A model generated the notes under the pieces. It was not told the origin of the DNA. It searched no databases and saw only the letters and a program-made list of their open reading frames with translations. Positions 1-31,713 of a stretch of DNA of 32,340 bases are shown in pieces (within the stretch, counting starts at the first letter, position 1; each line of letters starts with the position of its first letter). Origin of the DNA: Candidatus Nomurabacteria bacterium (GTDB taxonomy: Bacteria > Patescibacteriota > Saccharimonadia > Saccharimonadales > Saccharimonadaceae). The stretch spans positions 1 to 32,340 of the forward strand of contig JAIRRY010000010.1 in NCBI GenBank assembly GCA_031255735.1, in the 5' to 3' direction. Position numbers and translations under genes: made by a program.

Positions 1-471
1 CTTGATCCAAGTGGGTTGCCTTCTACACTAACCCTGAATGTAGAGCTGCGCCAGCCAGTGGCGGCGTGGTCGCAAGATAGCAAAGATTTTTACGTTGACG
101 GCGACGGCAAGTCGTTTGAATATAGTTATCACGAACGTCCTACCTTAAACATCGTCGACGAGAACGAGCTGAGTGCTGAGTATAAGAACACGGCTATCGC
201 TAGTAACCGTTTTCTGCAAACTGTTGGCCGCCTGGTTACCGAGCTGGACGTGCGCCGGCTCACTGTCGAGAAACTGATTATCCCGCGTGGTATGGTGCGC
301 GAGATAGACGTGTTGGTGAAGGGGAGTGCGATACGTTTTAAGTTATCGGTCGATCGTTCGCCAGCCGAGCAGGCCGAAGATGTCGCTAGGGTGCTGAGGT
401 ATTTCAACGAGCGCGGCGAAGTGCCGCAATATGTAGATCTTAGGGTAGAGCAGAAGGCTTTTTACAAGTAG
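1..471 (+). CDS. C-terminal part of a FtsQ/DivIB-like cell division protein (5' truncated by window edge)
   Basis: Frame is open from base 1 (LDPSGLPSTLTLNVELRQ...), so the TTG at 16 is probably not the start. The C-terminus 'VEKLIIPRGMVREIDVLVKGSAIRFKLSVDR...YVDLRVEQKAFYK' resembles FtsQ/DivIB C-termini. Confidence 0.5.
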   Translation, partial: LDPSGLPSTLTLNVELRQPVAAWSQDSKDFYVDGDGKSFEYSYHERPTLNIVDENELSAEYKNTAIASNRFLQTVGRLVTELDVRRLTVEKLIIPRGMVREIDVLVKGSAIRFKLSVDRSPAEQAEDVARVLRYFNERGEVPQYVDLRVEQKAFYK

Positions 472-1162: not shown

Positions 1163-1198
1163 AAAAAAAGACAGCCTCGGCTTAGAAACCGCCGAGGC
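1163..1198 (-). terminator. Rho-independent terminator of the 1229-1666 unit
   Basis: Stem gcctcggc (1174-1181)/gccgaggc (1191-1198), followed on the minus strand by a T-rich tract (complement of aaaaaaag, 1163-1170). Confidence 0.8.
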
Positions 1199-1228
1199 AA
1201 AAAAGAGAAGTTGGTAAGAGGAGTTTGA

Positions 1229-1666
1229 TCAGATTAGTAGTGCAACTATACACAACGACAGTTGTATATAGTTTAGTACCATGTCATGCCAGGTATTACC
1301 TGTCATGTCATACTTTTTAAGTACAACTTGGCATGACATGGTCGCAACCATTATACAACTAAAAACTATAGTTGTTATTAATGGTTGTGCATTGGCGGCC
1401 GATAGCTTTATGGCGGCCGCCACCGCCATTACGGCGATAAAGACGCCACCCATTGACTGGGTGAACGCCAACCAGCCAGTGGCTGGTTTCACCAGCTTCC
1501 ACCATCTCACGACGGCGTCAACCATGATGTCGCATAGGAGCCATGCGACTACCATGGCGGCTAGTGCTATCTGCCATCGGATTTTAACCAATGGCAGTAA
1601 AATGCATACGAACGACATAAGTCGTATCGCGGCCCCATAGTATGGGACCATATTGATGACGCTCAT
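1229..1666 (-). CDS. Small multi-pass membrane protein (145 aa), hypothetical; coding sequence tiled with inverted repeats
   Basis: ORF with several hydrophobic segments, SD-like gagagggggtga upstream of ATG, its own promoter and terminator. May be a protein, an RNA, or both. Confidence 0.6.
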   Translation of the reverse strand: MSVINMVPYYGAAIRLMSFVCILLPLVKIRWQIALAAMVVAWLLCDIMVDAVVRWWKLVKPATGWLAFTQSMGGVFIAVMAVAAAIKLSAANAQPLITTIVFSCIMVATMSCQVVLKKYDMTGNTWHDMVLNYIQLSLCIVALLI

Positions 1667-1734
1667 TTTGCGTCACCCCCTCTCTAAAAATATACAAACA
1701 CTGAGCAACCGTATGTTACCCAGAATGCGGCTTA

Positions 1735-1763
1735 ATTGTACCACCCATGAGCGGTATTGTCAA
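1735..1763 (-). promoter_or_regulatory. Sigma70-type promoter for the 1229-1666 unit
   Basis: On the minus strand TTGACA (1763-1758), 17 nt, TACAAT (1740-1735). Confidence 0.7.
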
Positions 1764-1798: not shown

Positions 1799-4594
1799 CT
1801 ATTTTTTGTTTGCACTGTGGCGTGGGTGACGCGAATGTTTAATGTAAACGGTTGTTGGGTCGTTGTTTGGCGGCGTTTTGCCGGCCTTCGGGGCTGGTGG
1901 TGTAGGCTTAGGTGTGGTTTTAAGCTTATTAGCAGCAGGCCTAGCGGTTGGCTTAGCCGGCTCAGTAGCTGGCTTTGGCGCTACGGTTTCCGTTTTGGTG
2001 GCGGCTTGTTTGCTTCTTTCATAGAGCGCCGACAGGTCTTTCAAGGTAGTTTTGGGTACACGATTCTCAGCCTTAGAAGGGCTAATTTTAGCTTTATTTA
2101 ATATAATTTGTGGCTTTGCGGCTGCGCCTTCGGCCTGCGCACCACGAGCGTGAATCTCTTCTTTATATACTGTGGGCGAGGCGATAATTTCGGCAATTTC
2201 ACGCTCTACTTCTGCCCTACTCCGCGCAAAACTATGGCGCGAGTTTTCGATAATCGTGCTAGAATGGTCGGTTTGTGGTGTAGGTAAGTTTAGTGTAGTT
2301 GCGCTAAACGCGGGAGCTTTTTCGCCGTTAATAATCATATTGATAATAAAATGGCGGTTGTGGATTTGCAGCAAGTCACCTTCTTCAAACTGCGGCTCGA
2401 ACTGCTTAGCCAGCATTGGAGCGTCGTCGGCTGAGACACGGAACGAAATCATAGTGCCTACGTTGCCAAACACGGCGTCGCGCACCGACTCGGTCATCTG
2501 CGAGATATACTGGTTGGCCACAGTGAGGTTTAGGCCATATTTACGGGCTTCAGAAAGAATAACCGCGAACGAATCGGTGGCGAAGTTTTGGAACTCGTCT
2601 ACATACAGATAAAACGGGCGGCGGTCGGCCAAGTCGGAAATATCGCTACGGCTCATGGCGGCTAACTGCACTTTTGTAACCAAAAACGCGCCTAAAATTG
2701 CAGCATTATCTTCACCAATAAGCCCTTTTGATAGGTTAACAATGAGAATTTTGCCGTTGTCCATAATCTCGCGGATATTGAATGAGCTTTTGGGCTGGCC
2801 AACAATGTTGCGGATGATAGGGTTAGCCGTGAAAGCACCAACCTTATTTAGCACTGGTGCGATAGCTTCGTTTACCTGTTTCTCGCTCCACTGACCAAAC
2901 TCGGCTTTCCAGAATTGCAGCACCGATACGTCTTTGCAGTATTCCAGCGTGTCTTTGCGGAAGTTTTTGTCGGTAAGCATGCGCGTAATATCAAGCATGG
3001 TGGCGTCTGGCCTATCGAGCAGTGCCAAAATAGTGTAGCGCAGCACATATTCCAAGCGCGGCCCCCAACTGTCGCCGAACATACGCTTCAGCACGCCGAT
3101 AACCTCAGAACTAATGTTTGGCTTGCGGTTTTGATCGGTCACCTCAAGCGGGTTAAAGGCCACGGGGTACATGGTATCGGCTGGGTTGAAATACACTACG
3201 TCGCTTATGCGTTCTTTAGGTATGAAACGCATATTGTTGATGGCAAAATCGCCATGCGGGTCGATAATGGCGTAACCCTGGTTGTGATAAATATCGGAAA
3301 GCGCGAATAGTTCCAACATGCCCGACTTTCCTGCTCCAGTTTGGCCAATAATGTAAACGTGGCGTGAACGGTCGCGGCGCAACATACCGAATTGATGGTT
3401 GATACCGCGGAAGTTAGTTAGTCCAAATGCGCTGATGTTTTCATCTACTACTGGGTCGCCAGTTAATACGGGTAACTTGGCGGGCGGCTCGGCAGTTTTA
3501 TTGCTTGCCCATACTACGTTTGGTGTTTCTACACTAGTGTGCGGCAAGTGGTATACGCTAGCGAGCTCTTGAATGTTGAGTACAAAACCTTTTTCAGCAA
3601 AACGGCGTTGTTTGTAAGCTTCCACCACACTGCGGTCGAATGTGCCATTAACTTGCTTAAAACCGTTTAAGTTGGTGCTGTTGTATTGCTTGAACGTGCC
3701 TGCTAAGGCTTGCATATGCAGCTTAGCGTTGGTTTGGTTGTTGCCCAGATACATTAGGCGGACTTTAACGCGGTAACCTAGCTTTGCGGCTTTTTCTCCG
3801 GCTTTGCTGATACGCGTTTTGTCGCGTTCGCTCAGCTCTACAGTGGTCGGCGAACTAGTTCCACCTTCTGGCGGTTTCCACAGGGCGGCCAAAGCCTCCA
3901 AAAACCAACGAAAGTCGAACCCGCCGCCACTGCTTAGTTTGAATAATCCACCGCCGTTTTTTACGCGGCGCACCCAGGCTTCAGACTGCTTGTGCCAATT
4001 GTCGGCAATTGGGCGAACCAGCATCTGAATCCACAGTTCTTCGTCGATAGATTCAAGCTTGGCTAATGTTCCAGTTACACCCGCTAATGGGTCAACTTCA
4101 AAGCTCTCGAAGGTTTTAATTGGCAGTGCTTCGTCGTCGGTTAAAATGATTTCAGAGCTATAGATAACAGGGTGGTCTTTGGAATGGTTTACGTAATCCT
4201 CTTTAGACTCGTAAATCTGCACCGTTGGGTACTGCGAGTAAATCTGCCCCTCTACGAAACTTTGTAGAATTTTCGGCACCCAAACATAGAAGCGGATTTG
4301 GCGATTAACGCTGGCGATCTCAAACCCAAGGTGCTCTTGTACACCGTTGTTTATTTTGAGCTCGTTGGCGTCGCGCAAAATTCCGTGTAAGCTGGCGAAA
4401 AGTTGTTCGGCGGCCAACTCTTTTTTATCGTTAGTGCGCGGAATTTCAAGTATTAAAAGCACACTTTCAATGTCGGCTGCTTTAATTTGGTCAATTTTTT
4501 TATAATTGCGATAAGTTAAGTACGACAGCACCACAACCAGAGGTAGCCAAACCCATGGCTGCAGAATAAAACTTATAATACTTGCGAAAATCAT
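1799..4594 (-). CDS. VirD4/TraG/HerA-like type IV secretion-family ATPase with N-terminal membrane segment and Pro/Lys/Thr-rich C-terminal tail
   Basis: Walker A 'IIGQTGAGKSGMLE', Walker B-like 'PFYLYVDEFQNF', 'YAIIDPHGDFA', N-terminal TM 'WVWLPLVVVLSYLTY'. Confidence 0.8.
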   Translation of the reverse strand: MIFASIISFILQPWVWLPLVVVLSYLTYRNYKKIDQIKAADIESVLLILEIPRTNDKKELAAEQLFASLHGILRDANELKINNGVQEHLGFEIASVNRQIRFYVWVPKILQSFVEGQIYSQYPTVQIYESKEDYVNHSKDHPVIYSSEIILTDDEALPIKTFESFEVDPLAGVTGTLAKLESIDEELWIQMLVRPIADNWHKQSEAWVRRVKNGGGLFKLSSGGGFDFRWFLEALAALWKPPEGGTSSPTTVELSERDKTRISKAGEKAAKLGYRVKVRLMYLGNNQTNAKLHMQALAGTFKQYNSTNLNGFKQVNGTFDRSVVEAYKQRRFAEKGFVLNIQELASVYHLPHTSVETPNVVWASNKTAEPPAKLPVLTGDPVVDENISAFGLTNFRGINHQFGMLRRDRSRHVYIIGQTGAGKSGMLELFALSDIYHNQGYAIIDPHGDFAINNMRFIPKERISDVVYFNPADTMYPVAFNPLEVTDQNRKPNISSEVIGVLKRMFGDSWGPRLEYVLRYTILALLDRPDATMLDITRMLTDKNFRKDTLEYCKDVSVLQFWKAEFGQWSEKQVNEAIAPVLNKVGAFTANPIIRNIVGQPKSSFNIREIMDNGKILIVNLSKGLIGEDNAAILGAFLVTKVQLAAMSRSDISDLADRRPFYLYVDEFQNFATDSFAVILSEARKYGLNLTVANQYISQMTESVRDAVFGNVGTMISFRVSADDAPMLAKQFEPQFEEGDLLQIHNRHFIINMIINGEKAPAFSATTLNLPTPQTDHSSTIIENSRHSFARSRAEVEREIAEIIASPTVYKEEIHARGAQAEGAAAKPQIILNKAKISPSKAENRVPKTTLKDLSALYERSKQAATKTETVAPKPATEPAKPTARPAANKLKTTPKPTPPAPKAGKTPPNNDPTTVYIKHSRHPRHSANKK

Positions 4595-29978: not shown

Positions 29979-30560
29979 ATGTTTGAGCGAGATGAAATGA
30001 TCGATGGGTTTAGGGCTTTTGTAAAGAATCTTGGTCACGTGCCGACTACGCGTGAGTACAAAGATCTAAAAAAGTCGGGAGTGCCTGGCCCATCATTTAA
30101 AGCTATCAAACGCGTGTTTGGTAGCTGGAACGATATGCTCGAAGAATCGGGTTTACCAGTTAATCGTAAGGTTGATTGGGTGAAAGTGCCCGATAAACAT
30201 ATTATCTGGTTGATTCGTGAGTTTACAGTTAAGCATGGTCGCCCGCCGATGATTTCGGATTTTAGAAATCATCTATTAGAGGTCGATTATGAAACTGTGA
30301 TAGCGCGTTTCGGAAACCTGCCTAATGCATTGGCCCAACTAGGGCTTAAATGTAGGTATGGCAGGGGCGTCGACTACGATCGTATCGTGAGAGAGCTCAA
30401 GGTATTAGCGATTGAGCTTGGCCGCACGCCAACTCGCGACGAGTTCGAAGCGCGGTACGGCTCAACTGTTTATCGCCGCAATGGCGGTTACAGCTGGACC
30501 GACGTCGTGAAGATGGCGGGGTTGCAACCCATTCGCAACACGCCACGCCGCAAACCCTAA
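29979..30560 (+). CDS. Protein made of three homing-endonuclease-associated repeats (HEAR/HNH_repeat-like), no nuclease domain
   Basis: Three units with LGHVPTTREY.../HGRPPMISDF.../LGRTPTRDEF... and following 'FGSWNDMLEESGL', 'FGNLPNALAQLGL', 'YSWTDVVKMAGL'. RBS aggaggt at 29964. Confidence 0.8.
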   Translation: MFERDEMIDGFRAFVKNLGHVPTTREYKDLKKSGVPGPSFKAIKRVFGSWNDMLEESGLPVNRKVDWVKVPDKHIIWLIREFTVKHGRPPMISDFRNHLLEVDYETVIARFGNLPNALAQLGLKCRYGRGVDYDRIVRELKVLAIELGRTPTRDEFEARYGSTVYRRNGGYSWTDVVKMAGLQPIRNTPRRKP

Positions 30561-31512: not shown

Positions 31513-31713
31513 CTACCTATCCTCCTGGCTCGTGCCAGGATTATTGGCAGGAACAGGAACTCGGATGGGGACGATTGGGAGTTGCCTCTCCCTCACGTCA
31601 GATCCGCATTTTTTGCAGATCATTCTCCCATCTTCTAGTGGGTGTTTTTTTACAAAACACCCACCTACATGCCCGCATCCCGGGCATGCGTATGGAAATA
31701 ATTCTGGAAGCAT
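31513..31713 (-). CDS. Small zinc-ribbon protein (66 aa)
   Basis: CxxC pairs 'CPGCGHVGG...CKKCGSD'; near-perfect SD agaaaggaggtgatacaATG. Confidence 0.75.
   Translation of the reverse strand: MLPELFPYACPGCGHVGGCFVKKHPLEDGRMICKKCGSDVRERQLPIVPIRVPVPANNPGTSQEDR

Follow-up and report, generated by a model that had tools for sequence, protein, structure and literature searches.

A hairpin-tiled membrane-protein gene and a class of strongly folded orphan coding sequences in a Saccharibacteria genus

Bacterial coding sequences do not normally fold beyond what their choice of codons imposes. By this measure the ordinary genes of the genome studied here, a 150-kb control from E. coli, and samples from 18 related genomes all centre near zero. 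The window analysed is a stretch of 32,340 nucleotides that makes up the whole of contig C29 of a Saccharibacteria genome (652 kb, 29 contigs). At positions 1163-1763 it carries a small minus-strand gene whose coding region is covered by short inverted repeats. The question raised by this locus is whether the repeats form an RNA with a function of its own, serve the messenger that carries them, or are left behind by a process acting on the DNA.

The locus has the parts of a self-contained minus-strand transcription unit, as a preliminary description had proposed. The putative sigma-70-type promoter (TTGACA-17-TACAAT, 1735-1763, minus strand) matches 11 of 12 consensus positions, and its region is conserved in the leader of a paralogue described below. 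The predicted intrinsic terminator (1163-1200, minus strand) has a stem within 1170-1193 and a T run after it. Promoter and terminator bracket the unit as claimed, both as consensus matches. A 5' leader hairpin of 9 bp with a loop of 5 (1701-1723, minus strand), which the first list of repeats did not contain, sits some 5 nt from where the transcript is predicted to start. A Shine-Dalgarno-like stretch, AGAGGGGGTGA, can be read at 1673-1683 (minus strand), partly inside the first coding hairpin. The open reading frame (1229-1666, minus strand) has 145 codons, and its start codon lies in a hairpin loop, as had been noted.

The start codon, the Shine-Dalgarno-like site, and five predicted hydrophobic segments indicate that the ORF probably codes for a membrane protein. 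A structure predicted for the product gave no information (pLDDT 47). At 145 amino acids and with several hydrophobic segments, the product differs from the very short hydrophobic toxins of type I toxin-antitoxin systems. No promoter-like site was found on the plus strand in 1000-1900, which leaves room for an antisense RNA antitoxin.

The gene lies between an FtsQ-like ORF (16-471, plus strand) and a gene for a TrwB/TraG-like, conjugation-type ATPase (1799-4594, minus strand). Among named organisms, the nearest relatives of the ATPase gene belong to Candidatus Saccharibacteria, and many of these come from the ruminant gut. The genome encodes a second, diverged copy of this ATPase (C27:5842-8340, 34% identity), and both species of the genus keep the two copies. 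The non-coding region at 472-1160 is conserved in the sister genome at about 67% identity and is bracketed by the direct repeats GTTCGGTTTTTGTTC at 510-524 and 1060-1074.

About a dozen adjacent hairpins with stems of 5-14 bp run across the coding sequence (1244-1675, minus strand), and all 13 of the arm pairs originally listed were verified on recheck. The arms are perfect at 1278-1291/1329-1342 (14/14), 1393-1401/1414-1422 (9/9), 1470-1477/1481-1488 (8/8), and 1529-1535/1543-1549 (7/7), and also at 1311-1315/1319-1323, 1447-1452/1458-1463, 1612-1616/1621-1625, and 1657-1662/1670-1675. One mismatch apiece is found at 1244-1273 (12/13), 1571-1597 (9/10), and 1631-1649 (7/8). In all three the mismatch is C/A on the plus strand and hence G-U in the sense RNA, in agreement with the preliminary description. 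The repeat at 1346-1386 consists of two helices with an internal loop between them. The proposed extension of the 14-bp stem to 25 of 31 positions exists, but the hairpin at 1244-1273 competes with it.

The folding excess of this gene is large. The predicted transcript (1163-1735, minus strand) has a minimum free energy of -262.2, against -169.6 +/- 7.3 for dinucleotide shuffles (z -12.6). The coding sequence alone folds at -211.5 kcal/mol, against -148.1 +/- 7.0 for codon-preserving shuffles (z -9.0 in sense; -5.8 on the antisense strand); a null built on the codon usage of the genome puts it at z -8.5. It contains 7 strong hairpins, where 400 shuffles averaged 1.28 and never exceeded 4. The claim that this density of hairpins exceeds that of ordinary coding DNA is thus borne out, and the tiling is confirmed as real and unusual.

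The 145-aa protein is an orphan. Searches of Pfam (which gave one match below the cut-off), PHROGs, and NCBIfam brought no significant homologue, and neither did searches of phages, plasmids, contigs from viruses and from GTDB, and several hundred genomes from its family and order. The scans of contig collections, viral contigs included, detect close relatives only. Two other genes with the same folding property also gave no match in viral contigs, in a scan sensitive to close relatives only. A viral or plasmid origin was rejected for the 145-aa gene on its lack of matches in phages, plasmids, and viral contigs, the last scanned for close relatives only. Weak matches in two genomes, G068 and G145 (E 1e-4), were discarded, as neither region resembles the gene and the one in G145 overlaps a trmD-like gene. 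In the sister species of the same genus (genome G040), the neighbouring ATPase (84% identity), a counterpart of the FtsQ-like gene, and the adjoining intergenic region are all present, and the hairpin-tiled gene is absent.

The genome holds no second close copy of the protein that could be found, though it does hold a probable relative. The promoter and leader match C2:2876-2790 (minus strand) with 74% identity over 92 nt (E 1e-8). The leader there is followed by an ORF for a small multi-helix membrane protein of 165 aa. The two proteins share 22% alignment identity (pairwise E 0.006), a similarity that taken alone is no proof. Because the promoter and leader match and the protein similarity occur together, the two genes are probably fast-diverging paralogues. 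The leader hairpin carries a compensatory change between them, CTGGG...CTCAG becoming CTGAG...CTTAG (G-C to A-U). The coding sequence of the C2 paralogue lacks hairpin tiling (z -1.4).

The preliminary description had suggested a structured RNA, or a dual RNA/membrane-protein gene, of undescribed type. Taken to mean an RNA that adopts one set fold and binds a partner, this proposal agrees with the transcript z of -12.6 and the compensatory change in the leader hairpin. At the curated gathering score, Rfam 15 yields two tRNAs in the window and no match for the gene. The C2 paralogue keeps the promoter and leader without the tiling, which comes close to the case of a protein kept with its stems lost and speaks against a conserved fold. 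Further evidence against a defined fold comes from the many unrelated ORFs with the same property and from the mostly unconserved base pairs of their homologues, and this explanation is very unlikely. Of the dual proposal, the probable membrane-protein gene and the exceptional sense folding stand; the defined-fold RNA is not supported.

When every one of the genome's 634 greedily called ORFs was set against codon-preserving shuffles, the gene proved to be one of a class. About 18 of the 634 fall below z -6 (genome median -0.6, lowest -14), and the 145-aa ORF ranks fifth. A few calls have the strand wrong or do not represent genes, so the true number of genes is somewhat below 18. About 20 ORFs in the genome behave likewise, so the locus is not the single, unique RNA element it might have seemed. 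The hairpins within these ORFs are short and mutually unrelated. Two further members lie in the window: an HNH_repeat protein (29979-30560, plus strand; z -5.96; PF18780, E 2e-32) and a 66-aa zinc-ribbon-like ORF with an AGGAGG site (31513-31713, minus strand; z -5.7).

Most members of the class have no Pfam family, with a thymidylate kinase and the HNH_repeat protein among the exceptions. BLASTP against the sister genome found no match for 13 of the 15 class members of at least 100 aa, compared with 99 of 522 ordinary ORFs. A strong Shine-Dalgarno site precedes 67% of the class and 22% of ordinary genes (p 3e-6), and the sister genome repeats this bias (60% vs 22%). The 35 orphans with strong Shine-Dalgarno sites fall into two groups separated by a gap, 16 at z -3.4 or lower and 19 at z -1.9 or higher.

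The class is lineage-restricted. The sister genome has a smaller set, with 8 ORFs below z -6. In a sample of 363 ORFs from 18 other members of the family, one fell below this value. Two ORFs did so in the part of G060 that was covered, as did three in 300 kb of G072, none of the latter a convincing gene. In E. coli K-12, no annotated gene fell below z -4 among 154 ORFs in 150 kb that included two cryptic prophages. Class members are mostly orphan accessory genes of one Saccharibacteria genus and are rare in the samples from related genomes.

Three other class genes, whose homologues in the sister species have amino-acid identities of roughly 40-60%, allow conservation of a fold to be distinguished from conservation of foldedness. 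Both copies are highly folded in all three pairs (sense z -8.8/-5.0, -6.7/-4.1, and -22.4/-9.2). When the base pairs of one copy are projected onto the other, they are canonical no more often than in codon-shuffled versions in pair B, about 1.7-2 sd above that null in pair C, and about 3-5 sd above it in pair A. For the 145-aa gene, compensatory change of the kind expected of a conserved structured RNA was seen only in the leader hairpin. Since the folded homologues of these other genes mostly do not share their base pairs, what persists is foldedness and not a fold. More distant homologues are mostly unfolded, with the exception of one in G060 (z about -10). The class proteins are under purifying selection where dN/dS could be computed (about 0.29 and 0.14). 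The reading as a structured RNA of new type gives way to one in which the gene belongs to a set of coding sequences with generic folding, where RNA-level selection is favoured and a mutational origin is the main rival.

Several class members share related leaders. Five hairpin-rich orphan ORFs have a common homologous 5' leader: C16 (L024:15-178), C1 (L009:287-449), C15 (L023:3413-3573, minus), C6 (L014:6915-7056, minus), and C25 (L051:3377-3520, minus). Its layout is a long stem of ~26 bp, then GAGACGTC, then the Shine-Dalgarno site. RNAalifold finds 7 pairs changed on both sides, which makes this leader a candidate conserved RNA element. A second leader family, 84-96% identical, is found at C4:34012-34171, C17:19207-19360, C26:21277-21436, and C12:15625-15778 (all minus). 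The ORFs that follow it are otherwise different, and two are hairpin-rich and two are not. Related leaders also precede small hairpin-rich membrane-protein ORFs at C4:26116-26577 in the same genome, at G040:C6:6210-6698, and at G060:C3:4201-4614. The first two of these lie directly upstream of an exonuclease I-like gene, and their proteins have no BLAST similarity to each other.

The coding hairpins could instead act in translation, slowing ribosomes so as to pace membrane insertion or to limit expression, for example of a toxic protein. The position of the start codon in a hairpin loop would suit such a role, and the 145-aa protein and several other class members are membrane proteins or lipoproteins. 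Roughly half of the class is apparently soluble, however, including the thymidylate kinase; strong Shine-Dalgarno sites speak against low expression; and the C2 paralogue encodes a membrane protein without tiling. Control of translation is a very unlikely explanation of the hairpins.

A stronger competitor is a mutation bias at the level of DNA. Replication template switching (quasi-palindrome correction) would make and perfect short inverted repeats that have no function; conserved genes would purge them, and intergenic DNA and fast-evolving orphans would keep them. Hairpins are known to be created and maintained by template switching (PMC8794818), which can be transcription-associated (PMC3820800). 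Intergenic hairpin coverage relative to shuffled sequence is 3.19 and 2.90 in this genome and its sister, against 2.19 and 2.20 in two other Saccharibacteria and 2.21 in E. coli. It is thus raised in exactly the two genomes that hold most of the class, as expected of a DNA-level process. Stems turn over between homologues, nearly all members are orphans, and the hairpins take little account of codon frame (amino-acid share 11% in frame against 14-15% out of frame), all of which fits a mutational origin.

The strand of the folding argues the other way. In 31 of 39 genes chosen on the mean folding excess of both strands, the sense strand is the better folded (p 3e-4, Wilcoxon 7e-6), against 126 of 222 ordinary genes with strong Shine-Dalgarno sites. 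An earlier count of 26 of 29 was inflated because the genes had been picked on sense folding. The bias is weaker among genes selected by their coverage with Watson-Crick arms: 15 of 25 at a coverage of 0.12 or more (Wilcoxon 0.04), and 23 of 31 at 0.08-0.12. G-U exceeds A-C in the stems of 20 class genes against 3, in a set chosen on sense folding. Hairpin arms cover 0.218 of class coding sequence, which is under purifying selection, against about 0.13 of unconstrained intergenic DNA, though the class was chosen for folding. A further point against mutation bias is that half of the strong-Shine-Dalgarno orphans show no folding at all. Neither loss of SbcCD nor loss of RNase HII sets the genus apart from its kin or tracks the class: in the six genomes tested, SbcD was never detected and RNase HII was always present.

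Other causes were tried and set aside. Evasion of Rho-dependent termination was rejected because Rho was undetected in this genome and its sister. The Rho model gave sub-cut-off matches, perhaps F1-ATPase subunits, in G072, G015, and G035 and none in G000, G040, and G060; the latter three may lack catalytic ATP-synthase subunits as well as Rho. Avoidance of one nuclease motif would deplete a k-mer, and no single k-mer was clearly depleted. GNRA and UNCG loops in class hairpins were too few to judge a preference.

Selection on RNA has its own difficulties. The C2 paralogue does without structure, the C12 and C26 genes share leaders with class members yet have unfolded coding sequences, and the folding excess of leaders in the class is marginal (p 0.05). 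On balance the evidence leans toward RNA-level selection over a DNA-level process, and a purely mutational origin appears somewhat doubtful. The explanation we prefer, and consider close to an even call, is that the 145-aa ORF is a translated orphan membrane-protein gene of a lineage-restricted class whose mRNAs are selected for generic, non-positional folding, with protection from nucleases as the probable benefit.

The mRNAs of the class would share one layout: a leader able to form a hairpin, a strong ribosome-binding site, a hairpin-tiled coding region, and an intrinsic terminator. Folding may shield such an mRNA from endonucleases that cut single-stranded RNA. Stems of 5-14 bp would also be short for RNase III. 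Shielding could in turn lengthen mRNA life in a slow-growing, reduced cell, and the strong Shine-Dalgarno site would keep ribosome loading possible despite the folding. Single stems would be free to turn over, with overall foldedness alone being kept. Decay of mRNA usually sets in where the 5' end lacks structure, where the 3' end is free, or where single strands lie exposed, and it is established that bacterial mRNA is protected by hairpins at its 5' end, by intrinsic terminators, and by the sequestering of single strands (PMC3997798).

The class departs from the normal state of bacterial coding sequences by 6 to 14 standard deviations, and it does so in orphans with strong ribosome-binding sites. 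Either a selective force on whole-mRNA structure has been missed in some bacteria, or a genome-wide inverted-repeat mutation process rewrites young genes. Both answers have consequences for the origin and survival of orphan genes in reduced, host-dependent bacteria.

The literature searched, which took in few subscription papers, yielded no description of a class of bacterial genes tiled with hairpins. Rickettsia palindromic elements are palindromes inside ORFs and are copies of one repeated insert; here, the hairpins all differ in sequence and no other close copy of the protein was found. The nearest analogues are the coding palindromes of nematomorph mitochondria and the genome-scale ordered RNA structure (GORS) of RNA viruses. 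In Nematomorpha, inverted repeats lie in functional protein genes and are gained and lost between species as the protein is conserved (PMC6649704, which also mentions the Rickettsia elements). Their arms are perfect and reach 284 bp, and a mutational origin is favoured for them (PMC6649704). In contrast, the arms here are 5-14 bp, the longest perfect one is 14 bp, G-U is tolerated in the sense RNA (three arm pairs), and the whole gene is tiled.

The leader of B. subtilis aprE, as far as its citation in PMC3997798 goes, offers a likeness in mechanism, with a 5' hairpin, a ribosome-binding site, and a terminator hairpin that protect against nucleases. In the hairpin-tiled gene, it is the coding region itself that is the main structured part, and stability is a prediction. 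Like the class, GORS is folding that pervades the coding sequence and goes far past that of shuffled controls, and in viruses it is tied to evasion of RNA-directed attack. The energy of the 145-aa gene lies outside codon-preserving shuffles along the whole coding sequence (z -9.0), and the homologous pairs of other class members show the same generic structure with few conserved pairs. GORS belongs to the genomes of positive-strand RNA viruses, whereas the gene described here is chromosomal in a Saccharibacteria, and the class consists of scattered chromosomal accessory genes with local hairpins in DNA-encoded mRNAs. More tentatively, the class may be a cellular counterpart of GORS, a possibility short of probable: orphan accessory genes whose armoured mRNAs and strong ribosome-binding sites would let them survive a nuclease or RNA-targeting threat.
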